The notes under the pieces were generated by a model. It had not been told where the DNA came from. It saw only the letters and a program-made list of their open reading frames with translations, and ran no database searches. Below, one piece after another: positions 1,957 to 41,152 of a stretch of 44,739 nucleotides of DNA. The stretch comes from a virus. The position numbers and the translations under genes are program-made. Position 1 is the stretch's first letter. Every line of letters begins with the position of its first letter. The stretch covers positions 1-44,739 of the IMG/VR virus record IMGVR_UViG_3300009085_000008; one strand, 5' to 3'.

Positions 1957-1992
1957 ACAAAATGAAGCGGGGCCCGAAGGCCCCATTTCATT
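1957..1992 (-). terminator. Intrinsic terminator after ssb
   Basis: On the minus strand the hairpin GGGGCC-TTCG-GGCCCC is extended by AATGAA/TTCATT and followed by TTTTG. The UUCG tetraloop gives a very stable stem. It begins within the ssb stop codon and separates ssb from promoter P2. Confidence 0.8.
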
Positions 1993-2386
1993 AGAACGGA
2001 AGGTCCCCTTCGGTTCCTTCCCGCGAGGGGGCAGGCGCCCCGTCTCCGCTACCAGCCCGGCTCGAGCCGAGCAAATTCAAGACGTCCAAGGTGATAGATG
2101 TCGAGTATTTCTCCACACCATCCTTGCCCTTATACTTGTCGGTCCGCATCCGGCCCTCAATGTAGAGCGGGGAACCCTTGGTCACATACTTCGAGACGAT
2201 GTCTCCAAGCTTGTCCCAAGCGGTGACGCGCACCCACTCCGTCCGCTCCTGCTCCTTTCCGTCGTGCTTCCACTTCTCTGTGACGCCGAGCGAGAAGTTG
2301 GCGACAGTGATTCCACTACTGGTCTTGCGGACCTCCGGGTCACTGCCGACATACCCCATGAACGTGCAACGATTCAAGCCTCTCAT
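1991..2386 (-). CDS. ssb: Single-stranded DNA-binding protein
   Basis: Predicted SSB of 131 residues. It binds single-stranded DNA through an OB fold and protects replication and recombination intermediates. Visible hallmarks: MRGLNRCTFMGYVGSDPEVR at the N-terminus, SSGITVANFSLGVTE, TEWVRVTAWDKLGDIVSKY and GSPLYIEGRMRTDKY, the usual order of strands in bacterial and phage SSBs. The C-terminus is a disordered Gly/Ser/Pro linker ending EGDLPF, close to the DDIPF tail through which SSBs recruit partners. The length is typical. The start overlaps the stop of the DUF5664 gene (TAATG), and a UUCG-loop terminator follows the stop. Confidence 0.95.
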   Translation of the reverse strand: MRGLNRCTFMGYVGSDPEVRKTSSGITVANFSLGVTEKWKHDGKEQERTEWVRVTAWDKLGDIVSKYVTKGSPLYIEGRMRTDKYKGKDGVEKYSTSITLDVLNLLGSSRAGSGDGAPAPSREGTEGDLPF

Positions 2387-2775
2387 TATGCTTCTCCTTT
2401 TATGCTTTTCATTGAGTTGGTGTGTCCAAGGTCGTCGAGCTCAGACGGCAGTTTGCCGCGCTCAATCATCTCCTTGGTGTGAACATACGCGAAGATATTC
2501 CACGCGACAGCCGAGGCATGGTCTTCATCACGCCTCCCCTCGAGGACGGATACGAGGTGCCGCATCGCGCTGTCGAGGTAGCGGCTAAGCTCCTGCCCCT
2601 TCTCCCAGTTTCGGTCGCCATACTTCTCAGCGCCATTCTCGTAGTGCCTTGCGAGCCTGCGAAGAGGGTAGGTCGGAATTAGGTCGAAGCGCCCCTTCCC
2701 TTCCCGCGTGTCCCGGACGCTCCCCGTTGAGAACGATTGCCGGGCCCCAGAATCTACCACTTTTGCGAAGTCCAT
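2386..2775 (-). CDS. DUF5664-type dATP/dGTP diphosphohydrolase domain protein
   Basis: This 129-residue all-alpha protein resembles the DUF5664 (dATP/dGTP diphosphohydrolase N-terminal) family of MazG-like nucleotide pyrophosphohydrolases. Supporting motifs: GKGRFDLIPTYPLRRLARHY (27-46), ENGAEKYGDRNWEKGQ, YLDSAMRHLVSVLEG and DEDHASAVAWN, with acidic and His residues placed to bind metal. Members are thought to remove pyrophosphate from dNTPs. In some phages related enzymes deplete dATP so that 2-aminoadenine can replace adenine, but no PurZ-like gene is present here. It has a strong AAGGAGG ribosome site and overlaps ssb. A simple role in nucleotide pool adjustment is the cautious reading. 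Confidence 0.75.
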   Translation of the reverse strand: MDFAKVVDSGARQSFSTGSVRDTREGKGRFDLIPTYPLRRLARHYENGAEKYGDRNWEKGQELSRYLDSAMRHLVSVLEGRRDEDHASAVAWNIFAYVHTKEMIERGKLPSELDDLGHTNSMKSIKGEA

Positions 2776-2787
2776 AATCCTCCTTTG

Positions 2788-4014
2788 TTAGATGACCACC
2801 TGAAACACTGGAATGTTTTCGTGGAGCTTGCCAGCCGACTTGGCGTTGTAGGATTCCAGCTCCGGGATGATGTCGTATGCACCCTCAATCGAGGAAACCT
2901 GAAGGTCGCACTTCATCGAGTCACGGGTCCCGTCCTCATAAAAGATGTGGACATTTTGAGACGCCCGGCTAGCGAGCTGAAGGCCTGAGAACGAGTAGGC
3001 GTTCCCACCAACAAGAGAGCTTGAGCGGGAGTAAGTGTCCCCAATCCGGCACGAGTGTATATCCCCAAAGATGACGTAGTCGATGACGCGGCCCTGCTCA
3101 GCATACTTCCCGCGAATCTGCTGGACGCTCGTCTCGACCTTCCCGCGAATCTGCTGTCCATGAAGAAGAAGCAGGTTTTGGCCGGCGACATTGACGACCA
3201 TCTCTTGCGGGTTGCCAAGGATGAACTCCACCCCATTGGCCTTTCGCATACCATGTCGGAGGATGTTGAAGGTGAGGAAGTCGTAGTTGTCGCTCGCGAC
3301 CATATCGGTCCACCCGGGCTCGTCCTTCACCCTCGATTCATTGCCAACGACCTGAGCATACGAGACGTTGAAGTCTTGATTCAAGTCAACAATGAACTGC
3401 TCGAGAAGATACACCCCAAGCATAAGGGCGTTTGAGCGATTCGACGCTTGAGAGAGGTATTCATCCAGACGACGGTCGGAATTCAAGATGTCACCCGTGT
3501 TGGCAATCAGGACATTCGATACACCAGCCGCCTTAAATGCCGCCCGCGCCTTGTCCGCAAATAGCTTGAGTCTACTCGCCGCAACAGAGAAGTCATATCG
3601 GTTCCCTTCGATGTGGACGAGCTCGTTGAAGTGAAGGTCCGAAAGGTGAACCACCCCGACAGCCTTCGCCTTCTTGCCCGGGTGCTTCTTTGTGAGCTTC
3701 GAGAAGTCATACCTCTCGAGGAGCGCAACAATCTTTTCGCCAACCGCCTCAACCGCGTTCTGGTAGCGCGACGCTTCGCGGAAACCCTTCGCCCTGATAC
3801 GCTCCCGGTCCCGCGCTTTTTGGAGGTTGCGGGCCGTCTCGACAAGCTCCGCCGCTTGCTCTGGGTCTTGCCCGAGCTCTTTGGCTCGACGATACGCCGC
3901 GAGGATTTGTGTCGCCCTGTGGACACCACACTTAGCTCTCTTTCTCAATTCCTCTCTTGTGATTTCTCCGTCGCTTGCTCGAACAATTTGAATGATTTGC
4001 AGGTCTGTCATCAT
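2788..4014 (-). CDS. HTH-containing calcineurin-like metallophosphoesterase
   Basis: 408 residues. Residues 1-45 look like a helix-turn-helix (GEITREELRKRAKCGVHRAT), followed by a long charged helix (60-105). From 120 onward it is a calcineurin-type metallophosphoesterase: HLSDLHF (Asp126, His128), NTGDILN (Asp175), VVGNESR (Asn225), LLLHGQQ (His285) and FGDIHS (Asp318, His320). The full set of dinuclear-metal ligands is present, so it is probably an active phosphoesterase or nuclease. The DNA-binding-like front end suggests a nucleic acid substrate, but this is inference. It sits between the spanin-like gene and the DUF5664 gene, with a 4-base overlap with the former. Confidence 0.85.
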   Translation of the reverse strand: MMTDLQIIQIVRASDGEITREELRKRAKCGVHRATQILAAYRRAKELGQDPEQAAELVETARNLQKARDRERIRAKGFREASRYQNAVEAVGEKIVALLERYDFSKLTKKHPGKKAKAVGVVHLSDLHFNELVHIEGNRYDFSVAASRLKLFADKARAAFKAAGVSNVLIANTGDILNSDRRLDEYLSQASNRSNALMLGVYLLEQFIVDLNQDFNVSYAQVVGNESRVKDEPGWTDMVASDNYDFLTFNILRHGMRKANGVEFILGNPQEMVVNVAGQNLLLLHGQQIRGKVETSVQQIRGKYAEQGRVIDYVIFGDIHSCRIGDTYSRSSSLVGGNAYSFSGLQLASRASQNVHIFYEDGTRDSMKCDLQVSSIEGAYDIIPELESYNAKSAGKLHENIPVFQVVI

Positions 4015-4568
4015 AGCTCCAAGCTAAGTGTTAGCCCAACCACCGTCGCGCAGGCGGCGGCAGGCAGATATTGTTTGTCTTGCGCGAAGAGAACTGCCCC
4101 CACTGTTGAGACCACCACAACCGGCTTCACCCAAGCTGGCTCGTGGACCGTGACCGTCTTGGTGATTACCGGGCGAGGCGGTAGCCCGGTGATGTCAACA
4201 TCCACCCTGAACCACTCGTCCAAAGGACGGTATGACACCGCGACGCTCCCCTGAACGCCGCTGGTGTCAAAGCCGGCCTCGAACCTTTTCTCCTGCAACC
4301 TCGCGACAAGTGCAGTATTATCGAATCTCAACGAGTCCGCAAGGGCCTGAATCTTGGCTATCTGAGTTGAGTCAACAACGGTGTCCTTTGTGGCTGGGCC
4401 CTCGAGGATGATAGGCTCCGGGACCGGGGTTGGTAGCCACGCTGTGTCAACGACCACGGTCTCGCGTGGCTTTGAGACGTATCCACGTGTGCAATACCCG
4501 AGTCCAAAGCTCACAGCCCCCATGATGAACAGGCCCACCAATATGTCTCGTAGATTACTCAACGACAC
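4011..4568 (-). CDS. Spanin-like membrane protein
   Basis: 185 residues. The N-terminus holds a transmembrane segment (about 8-28, ILVGLFIMGAVSFGLGYCT). A proline-rich linker, a predicted coiled coil (IAKIQALADSLRFDNTALVA), a beta-rich stretch and a second hydrophobic segment near the C-terminus (about 146-183) follow. An N-terminal anchor plus coiled coil immediately after the endolysin fits an Rz-like inner-membrane spanin, which joins the two membranes to finish lysis in Gram-negative hosts. The second hydrophobic end is unusual for a spanin, so the call is tentative. The gene overlaps the endolysin end by 14 bases and the phosphoesterase start by 4. Confidence 0.55.
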   Translation of the reverse strand: MSLSNLRDILVGLFIMGAVSFGLGYCTRGYVSKPRETVVVDTAWLPTPVPEPIILEGPATKDTVVDSTQIAKIQALADSLRFDNTALVARLQEKRFEAGFDTSGVQGSVAVSYRPLDEWFRVDVDITGLPPRPVITKTVTVHEPAWVKPVVVVSTVGAVLFAQDKQYLPAAACATVVGLTLSLEL

Positions 4569-5013
4569 TCTCCGGCGGCTTGACGCCAGCCCTCAACTGC
4601 GCGAGCGTCAACCCGAACGTGAATTGAAAATGCGGAAGGTCGAGGAAGCGCCACCGACCACCCCACTCGAGGCCCAGCGATTCACCAAGCTCGCCAACCT
4701 CGACATAGTCCGACACCCCGTCTTGGTCAACATCGACCTTCGCATCCCACGTTGGCCTATCGTCCTTGACGATAGCGAAGTCGAATGCGAGCTTGAAGTT
4801 GTGGTAGGAGCTACCGGGCTTAGCGTTGGTGACAATCTTCCCGGGCGTAACGCGACCTTGGTCGTAGAGCTTCTGTTGCTCTTCGTTGGTCCGGGTGCCA
4901 TTGGTGATGATGATTTTGTGGCCCTTCTCTGCCGCAAGCTTGATTAACGCTCGGGCCTTGTCTGCCACATAGGGGTGAAGTGTAAGAATGCGCTTTTCGT
5001 TGTCAAATGCCAT
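4555..5013 (-). CDS. Endolysin, M15-type L-alanyl-D-glutamate peptidase
   Basis: 152 residues, a VanY/M15 zinc peptidase that would cut the peptide bridges of peptidoglycan. Zinc ligands are visible as SSYHNFKLAFDF (His71, Asp78) and DLPHFQF (His128), with the substrate-side motif GTRTNEEQQKLYDQG (39-53). Between the ligands, residues 94-105 read DVDQDGVSDYVE, an EF-hand-like loop similar in position to the calcium-regulatory loop described for the phage T5 endolysin. There is no signal peptide, so a holin is needed, and two candidates lie upstream. Expression should depend on the promoter at 5100-5128, about 80 bases upstream. The ribosome site is GAGGAAAG just after the T-run of the upstream terminator. 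Confidence 0.93.
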   Translation of the reverse strand: MAFDNEKRILTLHPYVADKARALIKLAAEKGHKIIITNGTRTNEEQQKLYDQGRVTPGKIVTNAKPGSSYHNFKLAFDFAIVKDDRPTWDAKVDVDQDGVSDYVEVGELGESLGLEWGGRWRFLDLPHFQFTFGLTLAQLRAGVKPPESVVE

Positions 5014-5027
5014 TGGGTGCTTTCCTC

Positions 5028-5099
5028 AAAAAAAAAGGTGCCACGCCGGGAACAGGGGGCGGACGACCCTGCCAAGCGGAGTGCTTGGAACGTGGCACC
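5028..5099 (-). terminator. Three-way-junction intrinsic terminator overlapping promoter P3
   Basis: On the minus strand, GGTGCCACG (5091-5099) pairs with CGTGGCACC (5037-5045), followed by nine T (5028-5036). Inside, CCAAGC-ACTCC-GCTTGG (5072-5088) and CAGGG...CCCTG (5053-5071) form two helices, giving a three-way junction. It lies between the 81-residue holin-like gene and the endolysin. The 5' arm begins at the base immediately after the TATATT of promoter P3. Confidence 0.9.
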
Positions 5100-5128
5100 A
5101 ATATACGGAACTATTCGTTAAAAGTCAA
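5100..5128 (-). promoter_or_regulatory. Promoter P3, endolysin promoter
   Basis: Minus strand TTGACT (5123-5128), 17-bp spacer, TATATT (5100-5105). The predicted start near 5093 lies inside the 5' arm of the terminator stem, so transcripts from here should lack most of that arm and read into the endolysin, spanin-like, phosphoesterase, DUF5664 and ssb genes. Confidence 0.85.
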
Positions 5129-5138
5129 GGAGAATCTT

Positions 5139-5384
5139 CTACTTCTTCTCCGCTATCGTCTTGGCAATCCCGGAGCCAAGCAGGACGGCGACGAGGAAGG
5201 TGACGCCGCTAGGAACATCCGGGACGGTGTTTGTGACAACCGCCGCCTTCAGATACGCGACAGCGAACACAAGCGCGAACGGGACAACGAACAGAGCGGT
5301 GAACACACGGGTCGAAGAAAGTGGGTCGCTAGAGTTGAGCACTCTACCCATGAATGCGACCAGACGCTCGAACATACCACCCAT
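5139..5384 (-). CDS. Small two-helix membrane protein, holin-like
   Basis: 81 residues with two hydrophobic segments (about 26-48, VFTALFVVPFALVFAVAY, and 59-74, GVTFLVAVLLGSGIAK), a short loop between them and a basic end (TIAEKK). The size and topology fit a small class II-type holin or antiholin. It precedes the endolysin and follows another holin candidate (5663-6190). A strongly purine-rich leader with GAGGGGG lies before the ATG, and a terminator follows the stop. The exact role relative to the second holin cannot be decided from sequence. Confidence 0.65.
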   Translation of the reverse strand: MGGMFERLVAFMGRVLNSSDPLSSTRVFTALFVVPFALVFAVAYLKAAVVTNTVPDVPSGVTFLVAVLLGSGIAKTIAEKK

Positions 5385-5400
5385 CCCTACCCCCTCTTGT

Positions 5401-5435
5401 CTTTTCTTTTCTTTTCTTTTCTTATCTTATCTTAC
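5401..5435 (-). repeat. Short tandem repeat (AAAAG)4-(ATAAG)2 upstream of the small holin
   Basis: The minus strand carries ATAAG twice then AAAAG four times, 17-50 bases upstream of the 81-residue holin-like gene. The pure purine tract could be an S1-binding enhancer of translation or a slippage-prone repeat that varies in length. No other such repeat is seen in the genome. Confidence 0.7.
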
Positions 5436-5662: not shown

Positions 5663-6190
5663 TTACCCCGAACTGCCCTTGGGGTCATCCCCATCCTTCC
5701 TATGAAGCTTCCCGAGGTAGGAGAGGACCTCTTTGATTTTCACTGGGAAGGTGATGTTGGTGATGATTGAAAAGTTTTCCATGATTGACAGAACCTCTGT
5801 CACCCCTAGATACGCAATAGCGAATGTGTCTAGATTGAGTATCTCGGCCTGAGGGATGACAAGCTCGATAGCGTGAAACGCTATGAACAGGAACAGGTAG
5901 CACAGGAACTTCAGCAGTCCTCCGCGGAATCGCGAAGACAGGAACTTCCCGTCGCGGATTGCCGCCGTCGTTCCGAGAACGAGGTCTACGGCCACCAGAA
6001 CCATCAGGGCTATCAGCGCCGGCATGTGTTCGGCAACCCCGGTTACGAAGATGACTATTGCCCCAGCAATGGCCTTGACCCACACGTGGTCGTGTAGCCC
6101 CTTCATTGCATCCCAGAATGGCGACATGGTCTGACAGACGTATGCCACCCCGGTCTCCGCCTTTTTGGCTTTTGAGATTAGGTCAAACAT
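5663..6190 (-). CDS. Phage holin, holin_4/toxin-secretion family-like
   Basis: 175 residues with a soluble N-terminus (about 1-35) and three or four hydrophobic helices: 38-52 (KAIAGAIVIFVTGVA), 57-75 (PALIALMVLVAVDLVLGTTA), 92-113 (LKFLCYLFLFIAFHAIELVI) and 120-137 (LDTFAIAYLGVTEVLSIMEN). The order VDLVLGTTAAIRDGKFLSSR, then a hydrophobic helix, then a conserved small-polar helix ending ENFSIITN is characteristic of the phage_holin_4 family. It would form membrane lesions that release the endolysin. It follows the 2144-residue gene at its stop (TAATG-type overlap), so it is made late with virion proteins. Confidence 0.8.
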   Translation of the reverse strand: MFDLISKAKKAETGVAYVCQTMSPFWDAMKGLHDHVWVKAIAGAIVIFVTGVAEHMPALIALMVLVAVDLVLGTTAAIRDGKFLSSRFRGGLLKFLCYLFLFIAFHAIELVIPQAEILNLDTFAIAYLGVTEVLSIMENFSIITNITFPVKIKEVLSYLGKLHRKDGDDPKGSSG

Positions 6191-9100
6191 TATTCCTCGT
6201 CCTCTTGAGAGCTTTCATACTTCTGTCTCTCCTCTTGAAACATCTCATTCCTCACATTGGTTCTCGCCTGCCTAACGAGATAATCAACGTATTCCTGTAA
6301 GTCCTGAGTCTTCATGGATTTAAGCTCTTCCTGAGAGCCCTGTAGCGCTTCCATAACGAGGGAGCCGACGGCCCCAACGTAGTCTTGATACCGCTTCTCG
6401 TCCAGCCTCTCACCGAAAACAACCCTGCTTGGAAGGCCAACAACGACACCCTTGCTCCCGAGCTCACGTATGACCGGGTTCTTGCTCTGCCGTGAGACAT
6501 TCACTGGGCTGAGCTGGAAGAGGTTGGCCGCGAGGTCGGGCTTCTTTTGTGTATCACCAAGTGGCCCCTTCCTTTCCGCAAGCGTCTTTGAGTATACCGG
6601 GACATCCGCAAGGACCTTCTGGGTGACACCCTCTGGAACGCGCTGGTCCCGGTCGATGAAGTTGTTTGTCCACCGCATCAGGCTACCAAGCGGGATGACC
6701 TGCCGGGCGTTCGAGGCCACGAACCTCGAGGCCTGCCGCTCTGGGTCACTCAGGGCCTCATTCAAATTGTTGAGCCCCTGCATGTAGGATTGCTCACCGA
6801 GGAACTTAAGTAGACTGACCGGTATGGCGGACATCTCCGAGCCGGGCTTGTTTGCGTGTTTGGCTATCATCGCCATAGCTATAGGGTATGACAGTGGACC
6901 TAACCTGTTGACTTGAACCCACTTATCGCCAATCTTAATCGCGTATGGAAGCTTGCCTTGAGCGTAGAAGTCTGCCTTCTCACTCTGATTCTTTGGGACA
7001 TCCCAAGTTGTTTCGGCATTCGAGACTACACCAGCGGCGCCCGCGGCAACGAGCGAACCGACCATCGCCTTGGAGAATTGAAGCCTCTGGTTGTCGCCGG
7101 CGCCAATCATTGTGAGGAACCCTGCCGGGGAGTATTCAATCCCCTGCTTAAAGATGTTCATTGGCGTCTGGATGAACGGGACCACCCAGCGTATCGCCTT
7201 GACGTTGTGTCCGGCGTTTTGAACCGCCATTGTCACCTCGTCAATTTTCGACAGGAGCTTGCCCTGCTCGGTCTTATTCTTCGGGTCCAGCATCTTTCTG
7301 AAGACGTAGTATTCGGCGCTCTTGCGGGCCTTCTCGTTTATCTCCCGCATATCCGGGGTCTTGCCCTGCTTCTTGGCCTGATGAATCAGAGATTCCCTCT
7401 CCCCTCCCTCGACGAGAACCCGGAAGAACCTATCCCCAGCCTCGAGCGCATTCGTGACGAACCGCGTAGCGTCGTTCAGCTTACTCACCGGCTTGAGTAG
7501 TTTTACTTCAGATTCGCCTGCGCTTGGAATTCGACGAAGGTCGAGATTTGTGAGCGCCTCCTTCCCAAGGAATGCCCGGACAGCCGCCTTCGACGCGTCT
7601 GGTATCGAGTTGGCCGCGCCCCTGTAGAACGCTGGGACCTCGCTGGCGAACCGGGTTCTCTCCGCGCCGGTGGCCTTGCTTATGACGAAGTCGGTGGCCG
7701 CCTCTGACAGCTTGGTCGCCGGAGCTGTGATTCCGGTCTGAATCAAGTTGGAGAATGCGTTGACGACATGGGTCCGCGGCGAAGAGAGCATTGAGATGTA
7801 GCGCAATTCGTCAATGACCTCGCTGGCCTTGGGCTTCACGAACTCCCTGTAGAACTTGGCAACACTGCGAGAGTCGTTCCAGTCAACATCCTTGCCTTTG
7901 GCTTGAATGTCTCCAATGTCGTTCCCAAGCTTTACGAGCCTCTGGTAGAGCTGTTCCTTCGTCCCCCACTCTACCGCGTCGGCATTCTCTCTGAAGAATC
8001 GGAGCAATTGCCCGGCGTAGCTGGCGACAGAGTTGAGCTGAAGGAATCGCTCTTTCGCCTCCGGGGTATCGAGCCGGTCTTTTCGGATGTCCATATTGAC
8101 CATCTCTCGGAGCTTGAGAACAGCTCCGAAAACCTTAACGCGCTCCTCGTGCGGGATAATCTTCTTCCAAGGCTCCGCGTCTTTTGCCGCCTCCAAGACC
8201 TCGTCCACCGTTACCGGCTTCCCAGTGACCTTCTCAATCTCCTTTGAGATGTCTTTCGCGTAGTCCAGCACACGCTTTCTCTCGAGCTCGCTCAACCCAG
8301 CCAGTCTCTCGAGATTCACCGAGCCGGCATACTTCTTGATATTCTGCTCGTCGAGCGGGAGCATGGTAGACATTTTGAACATGTTGGGTTCATTCGGATT
8401 GAACTCGGTGTTCCCCTCAATGTTCTTCAGCTTCCTCGGGTCCCAGACGATGTAGGACTTGGAGCCGTGGTCAGCCACGAGCTCTTTCAGGTTGTCTGCG
8501 TCAATCTCGTATCCCTCTTTCCTGAGCGCATTCTCAACAGACCTGCCGGCGCGGGTGGCGATACCCTCCGCCCTGTTGGTGTATTCGATAGCATCTATGC
8601 CGTGTTTCTCGAAAATCTTCTGGACAATCTCGTTACGCTTAATGCGGCTGTATTCGAACAACAGCATGTCCTCTGCGCCGCCCACAAACCCAATCTCTTT
8701 GGCGAACTGCTGGCGAATCTTTGGGTCACTCTTAAATCCATCCTCAAGCTTCTGCCGGATGTCGTAGTCCTCCTTCATGAACCTCTCTAGGTCGGCTAGG
8801 AGCGCTTTGTCTTTTGTCGCCCAGACCGCCTCCCGAGCGACGCTGTAGGCATCCCAAGTCCCTATGTCTGGTAGCTCGATAGTCTTCTTGGCGTTGCTGA
8901 CAAGCGGAAGAAGCCTGTCCCCGCGATTTGCGAAGTCAGCCGCCGCGTAGAAGTCTCCGACATGGGTTCCAAAGTGGTAGGCAGACTGGGTCCTGAATGT
9001 ATTAAACTCTGCCCCGGTCCCATGATAGGTCTCACCCTTAATCGCCTGTCCGCCCTTCATGTATTCTTTCATCTTGGGCGTGTCCTTATACTTCCCAGCG

Positions 9101-12100
9101 AACTCTCTGACATGGCTCTCCGGGCGCTCGTCTTTTGGTAGGACAACGAATGCTCGGACATCCTCACGCGCCGCATTAAGAGCGCCGTTGGGTAGCTCAA
9201 CCATCTTTCCCAGCTCTCGGCTTGGGTCGAGGATTACAATGGGGGTTCCGTTCTCGGTCTTGTATACCGAAGTCTTGAGCTCCTTGGGGTTCCAAGTTTC
9301 TGGGAAGCGGACCTTGACACCCTTTCTGAACTCATCGAGCTTCTCGAGAAGTTTGCCGCCAATGGGAATCACCTCGAGTCCAAAGGCCGTTCCTTTGGAG
9401 TCATTCGGGATACCGTCTTTGCCTGCTCCTCCAGCCCCGCCCTTGCCTCCGCTAGGGCGCGGGCCACCCTCTCCGGGTCCGGGTATCGGCCCTGTGCTTT
9501 CAGGCGGTCCGAAACTCTTTCCAGTGATTTCGTCCAGTGTTCCATCCTTCTTCAACTCCTTGAGAGCTTCGCCGTGGTTGTAGGACAGCATGTCGCTCTT
9601 CAGCTGTTTGTTGGCCCACTCCTGCTCGACAGACCACAGGTATGCCTGTAGCTCGGCTGGGGTAAGGTCAAGCTTCTTTGCCGCCATCTCGACGGCTTGA
9701 TTCATGAGCCTTCTCTCGACGACGCTGTTACTTCCGGCGAGGCTTGGCTCCTCCACAATCTTTCCCTCTTTGTCGTATCGCGCACCATGAGTGTAGTCGA
9801 GCTCTCCCATGAGTGCTCGCCAGCTACGGTTCCACCAGATGTCTTTTGTGACGACATTCAGGTTGCCGCTCTTGTTGAGGAAATAATTACCGATTTTGGG
9901 GCCAAGAATCGCGGCTCCATAAACGGGCTTCCCGGGACCATTCTCGGGCTTAACGGTGGTGCTACGCTTTAGCACTTCAGCGAGCGGGTGCTCGGTCTTC
10001 AGCCATTCGACGGCCCCTTCGACGCCCATCTCGTCAACGAGAGCCTGAATCTTTTGAAGTGTGACGATGGTTGTTGAGCCACGCGTCCCGCGCTGTTTCG
10101 AGCCAAGCTTCTCTCCGTTCTGGAAGCTCTGCCACTCCTGAAGACCAAAGCGTAGCTCGTCAAGGGGAGAGGCCCCGTTCGACAGCGCACTTGTAACGGC
10201 GTTGAACAGGTCGCGCCCTGCCGGCGTGTCGAGCCCCTTAATTCCATCCTTCTGGAGCTCTCCGACGGTGTCATGCCAAACGTCATACCATCCCTTGTGA
10301 GGCTCTCCAAATGCTTCTGAGGCCGCCTTCTCCGAGGCCATTCTCTCCCGGATAGCGTCTCCATAGACCTCTGTGAACCGCTCGCCTACGGCCTCGGGGG
10401 AGGCTTTGGGCGGTCTGTATCCGGCGTCCTCGAGCTCTTTCCGAGAGCGCTCGTAAAGGTCCATAACGCCGGTAGCCCCGAGCTTCTTCGGCTCAGCCGA
10501 TACGCGGGCCTTTGCGGCCTCAATTCCCTGAGGGGTGGCTTCCCCGGGAACGACACCCTTGTTCGCGGCAATCTCCACCCTCTTCTCGAGTGGCGGGAAG
10601 TCTGGGCGCTCTTCACCCGTCCCCAAGGTTTCAACGGCCTTGTTGTTCTTCAGGTCCCAGACGGATTTCTGATTGTATCTGCGAGCCAAGTCGATTGCGG
10701 AACTCTTGTTGGCGGCATTGAAAGCGAGGTCGATGTAAGCCTTGTCCCCGTCAATCCACGTTCCGATAGACATTCCCTCGAACGACAACAGCCCCTCGTG
10801 CTTGTCGAGGAGCTTCGAAACGCCGCTTCGAATGGCCTCCGGGGTGTTCTCAACGACGAGCCCATATCCGGTTCCATCCGGTTTTGTCCCAGTGAGCGCA
10901 ACGGAATACCCGCGTGAAACTGGTTCACCTGTTCGCGGGTTTATCGTTGAGCCACCATCCCTTATCGTGGCTTCAGTAATGCGTTCCTCGAGGTCCTTGC
11001 GGTTAAATCCGCCAACCTTCTTCAGCTCGTCAATCCCCTTCCCAGCGAGCTCGTCGGTGACTGGGAGGATTGTGGAACCAAAGATTGAGCCCTTGCTACC
11101 GAATGCCTTCCCGTCGATGATGTCGCGGACCTTGTAGGTCTGTCCCCTCTTGTCGGAGAATGTGACGAGAGCGTCCGGCGAGAGCTTCTTCTCCGCGACC
11201 ATATCAAAGAGGTGATTCGTGAGGCGTTGCTGTGCGTCCGTGTCACCCTTGTAGTCGCGGAAGTCGCCCCAGATTGCGGCCAGTGAGCCGGAGTCTGTGG
11301 TATACCTCCCAGCCATAAAGCGGCCATCGCGAACATACTGATTCGCCTGACTGACGGCCTGCTCGTAAGGCATCTTCAGGTCTTCTGTGAAGTGCCGAAG
11401 GAGTGTATCGAAGTGGGTCTCCCCGGGCTTCCCGTATAGCATCTTCCCGTTTTTGGGGGAGATGATGAATGGGGTCCCATAGCTACCGGCCTCGAGCCCA
11501 TTCAGTGCATCCGGGGTCACATCCTCCAATCCCTTCTTTTTGAAGGATTCCTCGAGCTTGCCCTTCTTGATTCCCTTCCGCGCCTCGGTTATCCCCTCTT
11601 CAGAGAACATGGAGACGCCCATCTGTCCGGGAACGGGCATGGGTCGAGAGTCTCTCGCCAAAGCGTCCGGGGCGTTCGGCAGTCCCGGGGTCTCCCCACC
11701 GAGAGCCTTGTGCGCTTTCGCAAACATGAGAATATTCGCAAGAATGTCTCCCGTTTCTGCGAAACTCTTTCCGAAGTCGGTCTCGGGTTTTGCAATGTGG
11801 GTAAATGGAGCCATGACTGGCTCGACAACATTCTCTCCGACGCCGGGAATCTGAGCCGCCTCGTTGATTCCGCCAATGATAGCCGCGCCCTGAGGGGTGA
11901 AGTGGGCCGCTCCAACCAAGATGTCGAAGAGCCCCTTTCCATACTTCATCGCATCCATGATGGTGTTCGGGTGGACCCCAGCGGCCATCAGGATACTCAT
12001 AAGGTCTTTGTCGATTGTGTATTCGCCGCCCTGAGGGAGTGGTTCTCCTCCCCAGATTGATTCGCCCTGAAGTGTAAGTGGAGCGGTGGTCTTCAGGCCG

Positions 12101-12624
12101 TGGCGCATAGCTTCGATGCCACCGGCAATGTGCTCGGCTATCGCCCCACTGGGCGGCTGGGCTGGCGTTCCCCTTGTAGGGATAAATTGCGTTGGGTCGC
12201 CAATGGCCCTATCGACGATAGAGGTTGGAAGGCGGGCGCCGGTGTGAGCAACGGCGTGTGCGAGCTCTAGAATCTCGTCCATCGCGGACGGCTTCTTGGG
12301 CTCAATCTGCCCCCGGACAGACTGGGGCAACATCATTGGGTCGCCGGTCCGGGCGAGCTGTTCAGACATCTGAGAGAGGGTCTCAGACTGAGGTCCGGGC
12401 AATTCCCCCTGAGAGAACATCGGGAAGTTGGGACCCTTCGCTCCGAGCGGAGCTGTAGCGTCCACCTGAGCTTCTCCCGTCGGCGGCTTGAGAAGCGCCG
12501 TCGGGTCGGAGCCCATGATTGCGAGCGCCAGCTTCAACGAAAGAAGCCCGTTTTCGTCGAGCGGTGGGGCTGTCGAAACGGGCGCCTTCGTTACTGGAAT
12601 AGGCTTTGCCTTGTAGTCGGGCAT
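6190..12624 (-). CDS. Large polyvalent internal virion protein with ADP-ribosyltransferase-like domain (2144 residues)
   Basis: The largest gene, 14% of the genome. An N-terminal Pro/Gly-rich region (1-330) is followed by an unassigned alpha/beta region (about 560-640) and a conserved-looking segment NYFLNKSGNLNVVTKDIWW (about 912-930). A Gly/Pro linker lies near 1042-1068. An ADP-ribosyltransferase-like region runs over about 1198-1410: YHGTGAEFNTF at 1200, HFGTHVGDFYAA, GIDAIEY, SYIVWDPRKLKNI near 1389, then NPNEPN. These match the pattern of ART domains found in phage polyvalent proteins. A helical C-terminus contains SSPRTHVVNAFSNLIQT (about 1612) and a Gly/Ala segment near 1850. Position after two internal virion genes suggests injection with DNA and modification of host proteins on entry (inference). 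Confidence 0.8.
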   Translation of the reverse strand: MPDYKAKPIPVTKAPVSTAPPLDENGLLSLKLALAIMGSDPTALLKPPTGEAQVDATAPLGAKGPNFPMFSQGELPGPQSETLSQMSEQLARTGDPMMLPQSVRGQIEPKKPSAMDEILELAHAVAHTGARLPTSIVDRAIGDPTQFIPTRGTPAQPPSGAIAEHIAGGIEAMRHGLKTTAPLTLQGESIWGGEPLPQGGEYTIDKDLMSILMAAGVHPNTIMDAMKYGKGLFDILVGAAHFTPQGAAIIGGINEAAQIPGVGENVVEPVMAPFTHIAKPETDFGKSFAETGDILANILMFAKAHKALGGETPGLPNAPDALARDSRPMPVPGQMGVSMFSEEGITEARKGIKKGKLEESFKKKGLEDVTPDALNGLEAGSYGTPFIISPKNGKMLYGKPGETHFDTLLRHFTEDLKMPYEQAVSQANQYVRDGRFMAGRYTTDSGSLAAIWGDFRDYKGDTDAQQRLTNHLFDMVAEKKLSPDALVTFSDKRGQTYKVRDIIDGKAFGSKGSIFGSTILPVTDELAGKGIDELKKVGGFNRKDLEERITEATIRDGGSTINPRTGEPVSRGYSVALTGTKPDGTGYGLVVENTPEAIRSGVSKLLDKHEGLLSFEGMSIGTWIDGDKAYIDLAFNAANKSSAIDLARRYNQKSVWDLKNNKAVETLGTGEERPDFPPLEKRVEIAANKGVVPGEATPQGIEAAKARVSAEPKKLGATGVMDLYERSRKELEDAGYRPPKASPEAVGERFTEVYGDAIRERMASEKAASEAFGEPHKGWYDVWHDTVGELQKDGIKGLDTPAGRDLFNAVTSALSNGASPLDELRFGLQEWQSFQNGEKLGSKQRGTRGSTTIVTLQKIQALVDEMGVEGAVEWLKTEHPLAEVLKRSTTVKPENGPGKPVYGAAILGPKIGNYFLNKSGNLNVVTKDIWWNRSWRALMGELDYTHGARYDKEGKIVEEPSLAGSNSVVERRLMNQAVEMAAKKLDLTPAELQAYLWSVEQEWANKQLKSDMLSYNHGEALKELKKDGTLDEITGKSFGPPESTGPIPGPGEGGPRPSGGKGGAGGAGKDGIPNDSKGTAFGLEVIPIGGKLLEKLDEFRKGVKVRFPETWNPKELKTSVYKTENGTPIVILDPSRELGKMVELPNGALNAAREDVRAFVVLPKDERPESHVREFAGKYKDTPKMKEYMKGGQAIKGETYHGTGAEFNTFRTQSAYHFGTHVGDFYAAADFANRGDRLLPLVSNAKKTIELPDIGTWDAYSVAREAVWATKDKALLADLERFMKEDYDIRQKLEDGFKSDPKIRQQFAKEIGFVGGAEDMLLFEYSRIKRNEIVQKIFEKHGIDAIEYTNRAEGIATRAGRSVENALRKEGYEIDADNLKELVADHGSKSYIVWDPRKLKNIEGNTEFNPNEPNMFKMSTMLPLDEQNIKKYAGSVNLERLAGLSELERKRVLDYAKDISKEIEKVTGKPVTVDEVLEAAKDAEPWKKIIPHEERVKVFGAVLKLREMVNMDIRKDRLDTPEAKERFLQLNSVASYAGQLLRFFRENADAVEWGTKEQLYQRLVKLGNDIGDIQAKGKDVDWNDSRSVAKFYREFVKPKASEVIDELRYISMLSSPRTHVVNAFSNLIQTGITAPATKLSEAATDFVISKATGAERTRFASEVPAFYRGAANSIPDASKAAVRAFLGKEALTNLDLRRIPSAGESEVKLLKPVSKLNDATRFVTNALEAGDRFFRVLVEGGERESLIHQAKKQGKTPDMREINEKARKSAEYYVFRKMLDPKNKTEQGKLLSKIDEVTMAVQNAGHNVKAIRWVVPFIQTPMNIFKQGIEYSPAGFLTMIGAGDNQRLQFSKAMVGSLVAAGAAGVVSNAETTWDVPKNQSEKADFYAQGKLPYAIKIGDKWVQVNRLGPLSYPIAMAMIAKHANKPGSEMSAIPVSLLKFLGEQSYMQGLNNLNEALSDPERQASRFVASNARQVIPLGSLMRWTNNFIDRDQRVPEGVTQKVLADVPVYSKTLAERKGPLGDTQKKPDLAANLFQLSPVNVSRQSKNPVIRELGSKGVVVGLPSRVVFGERLDEKRYQDYVGAVGSLVMEALQGSQEELKSMKTQDLQEYVDYLVRQARTNVRNEMFQEERQKYESSQEDEE

Positions 12625-14527: not shown

Positions 14528-14556
14528 AATATAGCCGATTACGCGCTACAAAGCAA
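14528..14556 (-). promoter_or_regulatory. Promoter P4, internal virion and holin unit
   Basis: Minus strand TTGCTT (14551-14556), 17-bp spacer, TATATT (14528-14533). It lies directly after the tail fibre stop and before the 130-residue gene, whose ribosome site AAAGGAG follows within the leader. Confidence 0.85.
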
Positions 14557-31883: not shown

Positions 31884-32199
31884 TCATACGTCTACTTTTC
31901 TCTAATTTGGGAATTTTCTGCTTGGGTTTCTCAATTTTGGGAAACTTGAAGTCCCGGAACTCGATGGAGTGGAGGAGAGCCGCCATCCTGAAGAAGGTGG
32001 TCGCGAACTCAATCCCTGCCTCGTCCGGGTCGGGAACGTCTGGGCCGTATCCCCGCTTCTCTGCCTCAATGAGGAGTTTTGCGAACCTCGCGAGCCTCTT
32101 CTCGTCGTCGAAGGTCAGGCACATCTCCCAGAGGCCCCTTCTCGCCGGGAACGACAGCTTCATCTCTGCGGTTACTCCGAGGAACTGGGTGAAGGTCAT
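31837..32199 (-). CDS. Hypothetical protein, 120 residues
   Basis: Begins MTFTQFLGVTAEMKLSFPAR, is helical in the middle (DEKRLARFAKLLIEAEKRGY) and ends in a very basic tail (PKIEKPKQKIPKLEKSRRMN and on), which could bind nucleic acid. The family is not recognised. Its ATG overlaps the stop of the 180-residue gene (ATGA), and its tail overlaps terS by 47 bases, so the basic tail and the terS start are encoded by the same DNA. It belongs to the run of small genes leading into the terminase. Confidence 0.65.
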   Translation of the reverse strand: MTFTQFLGVTAEMKLSFPARRGLWEMCLTFDDEKRLARFAKLLIEAEKRGYGPDVPDPDEAGIEFATTFFRMAALLHSIEFRDFKFPKIEKPKQKIPKLEKSRRMNGKASKNRGPKKGHP

Positions 32200-32738
32200 C
32201 GCTTGCCCTCCAAGACAATTCGATAAGTCGCACCGACAATCAGTCCCCTTGAGTTGCCATATTTTCTAGCGGCTTCTTCCGATGTTTCCATTCTTGCCTT
32301 CACCTCTTCCGCTTCGAGCATCATCACGCGACCCGTGCCATTGCAACGGGGGCAGTTGTGTTCTTCTGCCATACCGCTCCCGCCACACACAGGACACTCC
32401 GTCGAGTAGCGGTTGCGGAGTGCGTCCCGTTCACGTTCTGCTTTCCCCGTTCGCAAAATCCATTCAGATGAATTCATGCCGTCTGTTGTTTTGACATTGG
32501 AGTAGTCTAAACGGTCTTGAAGAAGTCGGGCATTCTCGGCGGTGAGGCGGTCAGTCTCACACCACGGACAAAGTGAACCATAGGTGCATGGAGAAGTATG
32601 CCCCTGTCGCTCAGAGCGCCAATGTGCGTCCAATGCCTTTGTCAGTCGCTCATTCTCCTCTCGGAGTGCGGCGAGCCCGGCTTCCAGCTTCTCCACGTCT
32701 TCATCGTGACACATGAGGTATCGCTTCAACTTATCCAT
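32196..32738 (-). CDS. Zinc-binding protein with DnaJ-type cysteine motif, 180 residues
   Basis: N-terminal coiled coil (LKRYLMCHDEDVEKLEAGLA, then LREENERLTKALDA), a CPWC-like pair (YGSLCPWCETDRLTAENARL) and, near residues 128-151, CPVCGGSGMAEEHNCPRCNG with a following TGRV. The last is the paired C-x-x-C-x-G-x-G zinc motif of DnaJ-like domains. The paired cysteines suggest a structural zinc site. Function unknown, and such proteins are frequent in phage early regions. Start at 32738 (GGAAGGGGGGCACA upstream), overlapping the preceding gene by 8 bases. Confidence 0.7.
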   Translation of the reverse strand: MDKLKRYLMCHDEDVEKLEAGLAALREENERLTKALDAHWRSERQGHTSPCTYGSLCPWCETDRLTAENARLLQDRLDYSNVKTTDGMNSSEWILRTGKAERERDALRNRYSTECPVCGGSGMAEEHNCPRCNGTGRVMMLEAEEVKARMETSEEAARKYGNSRGLIVGATYRIVLEGKR

Positions 32739-33228
32739 TGTGCCCCCCTTCCTCCTTCTCGTTGAGGGTGCGGCGACGGATGTTGCAGGTTTCACATGGA
32801 CAACCTGCATTAGCATCAGCGTGAGAGTGATAGCCTTCGGCTAATCTTTGTAAGCCAGTCTTGAGCGCGGTGAGCTCGGCGGTGAGACGGGCGTTCTCGG
32901 CTTGGTCTGCGTCGTGCTGTTCGTGAGCCTGAAATGCGCCCTCCCTGAGCCCAGCGAGCTCGTTGGCCGTGTCCAGATACATCCTCCGCAAGCGGCGAAT
33001 CTCAGCCTTGTAGACAGAGTCGCTGAAGGGGCCTCCTAAGGTGCCAAAATTGCCTGTGTGGGCGACCACGGTTGAGAAGATGTCCCCGCCTGTCGTCACA
33101 ATGGGTTGAGCGAGCTCGACAATAGCGCTATCGTTGTGCCACCCAACGATTCGACCCTCATGCTCGTCATTTCCCAGAATCAACACCCTGTCGCCTAGCG
33201 AGAACCTTGGAGCCTTTTCGTTGCTCAT
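32731..33228 (-). CDS. Hypothetical protein with SH3-like start and coiled coil, 165 residues
   Basis: The N-terminus reads PRFSLGDRVLILGNDEHEGR then IVGWHNDSAIVEL, the layout of a small SH3/KOW-like beta barrel. Residues about 75-125 are a heptad-rich helix (YKAEIRRLRRMYLDTANELA), and the end carries GCPCETCNIRRR, a possible metal-binding pair. It shares the coiled-coil-plus-cysteine layout of the next gene. The ribosome site AGGAGAAGGCGC belongs to the same family of leaders as P1 and P10 genes. No function assigned. Confidence 0.65.
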   Translation of the reverse strand: MSNEKAPRFSLGDRVLILGNDEHEGRIVGWHNDSAIVELAQPIVTTGGDIFSTVVAHTGNFGTLGGPFSDSVYKAEIRRLRRMYLDTANELAGLREGAFQAHEQHDADQAENARLTAELTALKTGLQRLAEGYHSHADANAGCPCETCNIRRRTLNEKEEGGHNG

Positions 33229-33693: not shown

Positions 33694-33776
33694 TGCGGTC
33701 GCCCGGATTCGAACCGGGATTTCCGAGAGAAAATCCTCTCGGTGTGTTAGTCCCTTTCCCACTACGCCACAACCAT
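33694..33776 (-). tRNA. Aberrant tRNA-like gene, isotype not determined
   Basis: The minus strand has a perfect T arm (CCCGG-TTCGAAT-CCGGG), a 3' acceptor strand CGACCGC plus A, and a 5' strand ATGGTTG that pairs with it at six of seven positions (A1-C72 mismatch). The would-be anticodon arm is CCGAG...CTCGG with a 10-base loop AGGATTTTCT (or a 7-bp stem with 6-base loop), not the normal seven. The D region is also enlarged. No CCA is encoded. The predicted start of promoter P6 coincides with its first base. It could be a degenerate tRNA, an intron-free oddity or a tRNA mimic. Confidence 0.55.
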
Positions 33777-36201: not shown

Positions 36202-36527
36202 TACGCGCCGTCCTTTCTCTTCATCTTCACCAGCTCTCGCTGTTGCTTCTGCGCCTCGTTCAGCGGGAACCGGACAATCAGATTCGCGTTGAAGAGGTAG
36301 TTTCCGTTCTTCATTTCGATGAGGTAGAGCTTCAGCGGCTCAATCCCTTGGTCCGCCGTGAGCTTCAAGAGCCGGTGTAGCTCGTGAGGCTTCACGTGCA
36401 TCTCCCGGATATTCGAGAGCTTGCCGTCGATGACCTCGTAGCTTTGGACCTGTCTGATTGTCCGAAACGTGAAGAACACCCACAGCAGAATCGAATAGAC
36501 CCCGAGCACAATAGCATACTCCATCAT
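36201..36527 (-). CDS. Single-pass membrane protein, 108 residues
   Basis: One N-terminal transmembrane helix (MMEYAIVLGVYSILLWVFFT) and a charged cytoplasmic-type domain (VKPHELHRLLKLTADQGIEP; LYLIEMKNGNYLFNANLIVR) ending in a basic stretch. No family recognised. Two adjacent ATGs are possible, and the first overlaps the stop of the 58-residue gene (AAATGATGG). It is part of the membrane cluster transcribed from promoter P8. Confidence 0.7.
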   Translation of the reverse strand: MMEYAIVLGVYSILLWVFFTFRTIRQVQSYEVIDGKLSNIREMHVKPHELHRLLKLTADQGIEPLKLYLIEMKNGNYLFNANLIVRFPLNEAQKQQRELVKMKRKDGA

Positions 36528-36700
36528 TTCTTTTCCCTTCTGCCGGCATTGCGGCGCTTGACTAGCTCGGAGGAGATTAGGCTGATTGCCTCTTTGTCAA
36601 ACTTCTCGTCCGGGTCCAAGGCCTTCCGCAGTGCCTTGAGCCCCTCGGACGACATCGCCCTGAGCTGTAGAATCAATTTCTCTTTGTCGCTTGCTTCCAT
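36524..36700 (-). CDS. Small helical protein, 58 residues, possibly from a leaderless mRNA
   Basis: MEASDKEKLILQLRAMSSEG, then LKALRKALDPDEKFDKEAIS and a basic end (KRRNAGRREKK). The protein is helical and basic, with no family recognised. The promoter P8 -10 box ends six bases before the ATG, so the predicted transcription start falls on or next to the A of the ATG and no ribosome site is possible, as in lambda cI. A later ATG (codon 16) would have a short leader. The stop overlaps the next gene. Its size kept it below a 60-codon search limit. Confidence 0.6.
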   Translation of the reverse strand: MEASDKEKLILQLRAMSSEGLKALRKALDPDEKFDKEAISLISSELVKRRNAGRREKK

Positions 36701-36706
36701 TGCCCC

Positions 36707-36735
36707 AATATAGCACTCTCAGCGTGAGTTGTCAA
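36707..36735 (-). promoter_or_regulatory. Promoter P8, perfect -35 consensus
   Basis: Minus strand TTGACA (36730-36735), 17-bp spacer, TATATT (36707-36712), the closest match to sigma-70 consensus in the genome. It lies over the stop of the winged-helix gene and six bases before the ATG of the 58-residue gene. Confidence 0.88.
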
Positions 36736-40119: not shown

Positions 40120-40148
40120 AATATAACACTTTTTTGGTCTGGAAGCAA
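40120..40148 (-). promoter_or_regulatory. Promoter P9, shared AAAAAAGTGTTAT module
   Basis: Minus strand TTGCTT (40143-40148), 17-bp spacer ending AAAAAAGTGT, TATATT (40120-40125). The upstream flank GTAAAGATTCCAC matches promoters P2 and P10. It drives the initiator-helicase unit. Confidence 0.85.
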
Positions 40149-41123: not shown

Positions 41124-41152
41124 AATATAACACTTTTTTCCCCTCAAGTCAA
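41124..41152 (-). promoter_or_regulatory. Promoter P10, shared AAAAAAGTGTTAT module
   Basis: Minus strand TTGACT (41147-41152), 17-bp spacer ending AAAAAAGTGT, TATATT (41124-41129), with the upstream flank GTAAAGATTACAC as in P2. It drives the DUF932 gene. Confidence 0.88.

Follow-up and report, generated by a model that had tools for sequence, protein, structure and literature searches.

Analysis of the window, a stretch of 44,739 nucleotides representing a complete circular phage genome assembly, suggests that an intrinsic terminator and the promoter that follows the holin region overlap in such a way that termination at a single U-tract would be asymmetric, with late transcripts that come in from upstream stopped strongly and locally started ones less so, a reading to which we assign a probability of about 0.6. 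The assembly carries a 123-nt direct end repeat, and a second contig (sample 3300027972) that is 100% identical spans the join; the phage is known only from metagenomes. Annotated genes and recognised promoters are all on the minus strand. In order of transcription these genes encode RecT, a NinG-like protein, a replication initiation protein, DnaB helicase, terminase, portal and major head protein, and then tail proteins, a 2144-aa protein, a holin (Phage_holin_4_1 by family match, 5663-6190) and an 81-aa hydrophobic protein. The promoter/terminator element comes next, and is followed by the endolysin, an Rz-like ORF, exonuclease, dATP/dGTP pyrophosphatase and SSB.

The last gene before the element, the 81-aa ORF (5139-5384), gave no match in the family search. 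Beyond the element, a Shine-Dalgarno-like GAGG (5027-5024) just past the T tract precedes the ATG at 5013 of the endolysin, a 152-aa M15/VanY-type peptidase by family match (4555-5013). The end of the endolysin gene is overlapped by a 185-aa ORF (4011-4568) with an N-terminal hydrophobic segment; this ORF had no match in the family search and is Rz/spanin-like by position and shape only. The operon at 1991-4014 comprises exonuclease (2788-4014), dATP/dGTP pyrophosphatase (2386-2775) and SSB (1991-2386). Two further features were observed upstream: the 2144-aa protein (6190-12624) matches an internal virion protein at 1721-1995 (phrog_6651), otherwise belongs to no family and has a distant partner in contig L029 (31%), and a TTTTC/TTATC repeat run (AAAAG on the minus strand) lies at 5396-5434, upstream of the 81-aa ORF.

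The endolysin heads the exonuclease/pyrophosphatase/SSB operon and is not in one transcript with the holin. Because it is grouped with exonuclease, nucleotide and SSB genes, across the terminator from the holin, the element appears to separate late genes (virion and holin) from genes that are probably early or middle. The endolysin would then be made with the early set while the holin times lysis, as is usual; its placement recalls the early-region lysozyme of T7. The first-pass annotation had described the site as insulating the endolysin from late read-through; a boundary is indeed there, but what it sets apart is the endolysin together with the exonuclease, pyrophosphatase and SSB genes, and "end of the late operon" describes the site better than "gate before the endolysin". 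Late genes upstream of the element and nucleic-acid metabolism genes downstream of it are also what supports the asymmetric reading.

On the minus strand, the 9-bp stem GGTGCCACG (5099-5091)/CGTGGCACC (5045-5037) is followed by nine T at 5036-5028. RNA folding of the 63-nt element (5099-5037) gives a three-way junction in which this stem closes two inner helices, CCAAGC/GCTTGG (5088-5083/5077-5072) and CAGGG/CCCTG (5071-5067/5057-5053). The fold of 121 nt reaches -38.6 kcal/mol (z = -3.0), with 0 of 200 shuffles equally stable, and the 63-nt element alone reaches -32.1 kcal/mol, a value that again none of 200 shuffles attains. A scan of the coding strand detected no second hairpin of comparable stability before six or more T, so that the 44.6-kb circular genome holds no other strong terminator with a long T run. 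Since both shuffling tests returned none and no other strong long-T hairpin exists, we confidently predict that 5099-5028, a stable G+C-rich stem directly before a U-tract, is the intrinsic terminator that ends transcripts coming from the holin side. Ensemble folding places the 9-bp stem at a probability of 0.996 in read-through RNA, the only RNA that forms it, and the form with two inner helices likewise applies to read-through RNA only, the locally started RNA having a different minimum-energy fold. The suggestion that so unusual a fold might bind a ligand or be a stable small RNA drew no support from Rfam, where none of the families, riboswitches or known sRNAs reaches threshold and the best match, ncS54, has 18.2 bits vs a gathering score of 43 (E = 0.07).

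The promoter assigned by hexamer match occupies 5128-5100 of the minus strand, with -35 TTGACT at 5128-5123, a 17-nt spacer and -10 TATATT at 5105-5100. It is of sigma-70 type (-35 and -10 hexamers at 16-18 nt spacing) with a score of 10/12; 10 nt separate TTGACT from the stop codon of the 81-aa ORF (5141-5139), and TATATT adjoins the stem base 5099 with no gap. Exact matches to both hexamers also occur in the window at 1242, 33782 and 41124, and variants at 14528, 27732, 33816, 36707, 40120 and 1917. The motif is enriched in the window, with 25 matches (at most 3 mismatches) vs 11.6 expected, a count reached by 0 of 100 shuffles. The resulting family has about 10 members on the minus strand, the majority directly before minus-strand genes, and includes a tandem pair (33816 and 33782) ahead of a tRNA-like gene. 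That tRNA-like sequence (33694-33776, minus strand), directly after the tandem promoters, has a long variable region and a perfect T arm; it scores 25.7 bits in Rfam vs a gathering score of 29, and ARAGORN makes no call. We additionally observed a second promoter subtype, GTAAAGATTACAC-TTG...AAAAAAGTGTTATATT, at 1917-1945, 40120-40148 and 41124-41152, with a GGGGCC-TTCG-GGCCCC hairpin just before two of these three members.

From its spacing, the local RNA would start at the A at 5093, the seventh base after the -10 box on the minus strand and inside the 5' arm of the terminator. A sister promoter bears on this distance. Past the -10 box at 36707 the sequence reads GGGGCA-A, seven bases whose final A opens the ATG of a 58-aa ORF (36524-36700); this ORF shares four bases with the gene after it. 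Unless this ORF is not a gene, its RNA must begin no later than the ATG, so the start can lie at most seven bases past the -10 box, a distance that, carried over to the promoter at 5100, points to A 5093. A distance of seven bases agrees with the standard spacing. The real start could be one or two bases off 5093 with unchanged consequences, and the promoter could also be inactive. With its -10 box seven bases before the ATG, the 36707-36735 promoter and its ORF also seem to provide an apparently leaderless phage mRNA.

An RNA started at 5093 lacks GGUGCC, six bases of the arm, and so cannot form the 9-bp stem. Thus the layout reported by the first-pass annotation (promoter directly abutting the stem, three-way junction, nine T) is confirmed, and its expectations that the start falls within the 5' arm and that local RNA is short of six arm bases, so that only read-through RNA has the full stem, are supported as predictions by the sister promoter and the folds. 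It had further supposed that transcripts of the local promoter run on into the endolysin, and this part is not supported. In the minimum-energy fold of RNA from 5093 (or 5091-5095) the CCAAGC helix is kept and CAGGG/CCCUG is lost in favor of a nested alternative hairpin at 5035-5070 (minus strand; arms GGGUCGUCCGCC / GGCGUGGCACC), which excludes the inner helix and is flush with the U-tract. The new pairing joins AGGGU-C-GUCCGCC to GGCG-U-GGCACCUU, beside the remaining U's. At -13.8 kcal/mol, or -12.0 kcal/mol without the two A/G-U pairs, this hairpin exceeds the inner CAGGG/CCCUG helix (-6.5 kcal/mol) in stability by 7 kcal/mol, and in ensemble folding it reaches an equilibrium probability of 0.98 as soon as the 3' arm has emerged. 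A d'Aubenton-Carafa-type score is positive for both structures (32-44 for the full stem, 20-31 for the alternative hairpin). With a second hairpin at the same U-tract, local RNA is not expected to pass freely.

The one-way gate as first proposed, in which incoming transcripts stop and local ones pass freely, would require the alternative hairpin to be inactive, for example where CAGGG/CCCUG persists. The loss of GGUGCC from the local RNA fits such a gate, as does the order of folding: the inner helix forms first and is favored (P 0.75-0.93, with a single step at 0.73) for as long as a substantial part of the 3' arm is missing, the switch to the alternative hairpin coming when ACC of that arm emerges. 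Since equilibrium folding ignores kinetics, real local termination may be low. In addition, a penA promoter centered 24 bp from a terminator of -35.7 kcal/mol retained high reporter activity, slightly under that of the terminator deletion (PMC6045580). The greater stability of the alternative hairpin, its position flush with the nine U and its score as a terminator all count against free passage, and we consider the full gate fairly unlikely; of the earlier proposal the difference between incoming and local RNA stands, and a gate here would be at best asymmetric and leaky.

Conversely, the local promoter might mainly make a leader of about 60-66 nt ending at the U-tract, with the endolysin dependent on antitermination or on a choice of helices. 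The inner CAGGG/CCCUG helix and the alternative hairpin are mutually exclusive in the local leader, as such an attenuator would have it, and ampC/frd offers a precedent for a shared terminator and attenuator (PMC6045580). However, similarly strong alternative hairpins arise in about 30-40% of composition-matched shuffles, and there is neither a leader peptide nor a convincing antiterminator, so that we regard this explanation as very improbable. A Q-like antiterminator was considered in the 206-aa protein at 32196-32816 and rejected: the match covers a short stretch only (E = 5.6e-4), a zinc-finger-like segment common to many families, and in Pfam this stretch falls below every family cut-off, with a DnaJ-type zinc region as the best. 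The alternative hairpin may itself be an incidental product of composition, but by the fold prediction it would act anyway.

Whether the overlap has any functional consequence also has to be weighed, as terminator and promoter may merely have been squeezed into 125 nt. The promoter takes 29 nt, the terminator 72 and the ribosome-binding segment 14, together 115 of these 125 nt, which makes abutment unsurprising; given the 10 nt left over, 17% of placements show exact abutment and 58% a gap of at most 3. Compact packing of this kind is a serious possibility, if a minority one in our judgment. Against it, the reverse layout, a hairpin and then a promoter, is used at 1917 and 40120 in the same phage genome and would also fit here, and a start inside the arm must change which RNA forms the stem, even if this was never selected.

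Relatives were sought by scanning viral contigs with the endolysin, a tail protein, the portal, the exonuclease, a major capsid alignment, the C-terminus of the 2144-aa protein and two promoter patterns. Six matches (L003, L014, L016, L017, L023 and L031) are second contigs of the same phage; the base-by-base comparison, made for L003 only, gave 100% identity. Contigs L015 and L024-L029 are distant fragments, none reaching the lysis region, and L032, at 33% identity, carries other genes beyond the giant protein and lacks the element. Some viral contigs come from unrelated phages whose endolysin is similar but is not preceded by such a leader, GenBank phages gave no DNA match, and the genome contigs yielded neither a capsid relative nor a copy of the promoter pattern. 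Thus no relative covering the promoter/terminator site was found in viral contigs, GenBank phages or genome contigs, and with abutment known from a single sequence, selection for the asymmetry is hypothetical. The literature search, with subscription papers outside its coverage, returned no direct report of a phage terminator/promoter overlap, which is weak evidence.

Known systems place the site as a compact variant of a known arrangement. In IS10/IS50, external RNA has both arms of an inverted repeat and forms a structure that hides the transposase ribosome-binding site, whereas internal RNA starts inside an arm and is without the structure; control there is of translation, and in the phage it would be of a transcription stop. 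The ampC promoter is situated within the final frd gene and its start precedes the whole hairpin, so that the local RNA carries the full attenuator, unlike the phage's local RNA, which is without most of one arm. In both, one hairpin is the upstream operon's end and lies in the next gene's leader, the Escherichia coli hairpin ending the frd operon and attenuating the downstream gene (PMC6045580); in the phage's local leader the full 9-bp stem is absent and the weaker nested hairpin is present. Among experimentally studied cases, penA/nlpD1 of Burkholderia comes closest: a strong stem-loop terminator, TERM 264, likewise stands between the genes, and a natural mutation creates a -10 box only a few bases ahead of its stem. 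TERM 264 abolishes expression from a promoter centered 134 bp upstream, not from one 24 bp upstream (PMC6045580), which supports the view that a terminator fails against a promoter placed close to it. The abutting penA promoter is mutational and its start unmapped, whereas that of the phage is wild-type and a member of a family, with a predicted start; furthermore, the folds predict that the phage's local RNA keeps an alternative hairpin at the same U-tract. By these comparisons the phage site would fall between the penA/nlpD1 and ampC/frd outcomes.

Taken together, asymmetric termination remains the reading we prefer. A polymerase arriving from the holin side would transcribe the whole 63-nt element, form the strong stem and stop at the U-tract. 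The promoter is upstream of the terminator rather than downstream, and with a start at 5093 its RNA would be without the 9-bp stem; this RNA would instead fold the weaker alternative hairpin beside the same U-tract and be terminated less often, though probably not never. The expected outcome is near-complete insulation from read-through together with partial attenuation of the local promoter. The incoming polymerase crosses the promoter before stopping, so the layout gives the promoter no protection from occlusion. A stronger version, in which the site is a protein-free directional gate taking its 5' arm from read-through RNA only, with the nested hairpin setting a fixed, lower level of local termination, and was selected because it bars late transcription from an early endolysin operon, would go further, and we think it unlikely.

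The folds also carry a caution, in that an element deprived of one arm can still terminate where a second hairpin reaches the same U-tract. If the asymmetry is real, this would be a compact, protein-free insulator whose 63-nt element stops incoming polymerase far more than local polymerase, and a directly testable design for synthetic circuits. By such means phages with dense, one-strand genomes could separate late from early operons in about 120 nt.
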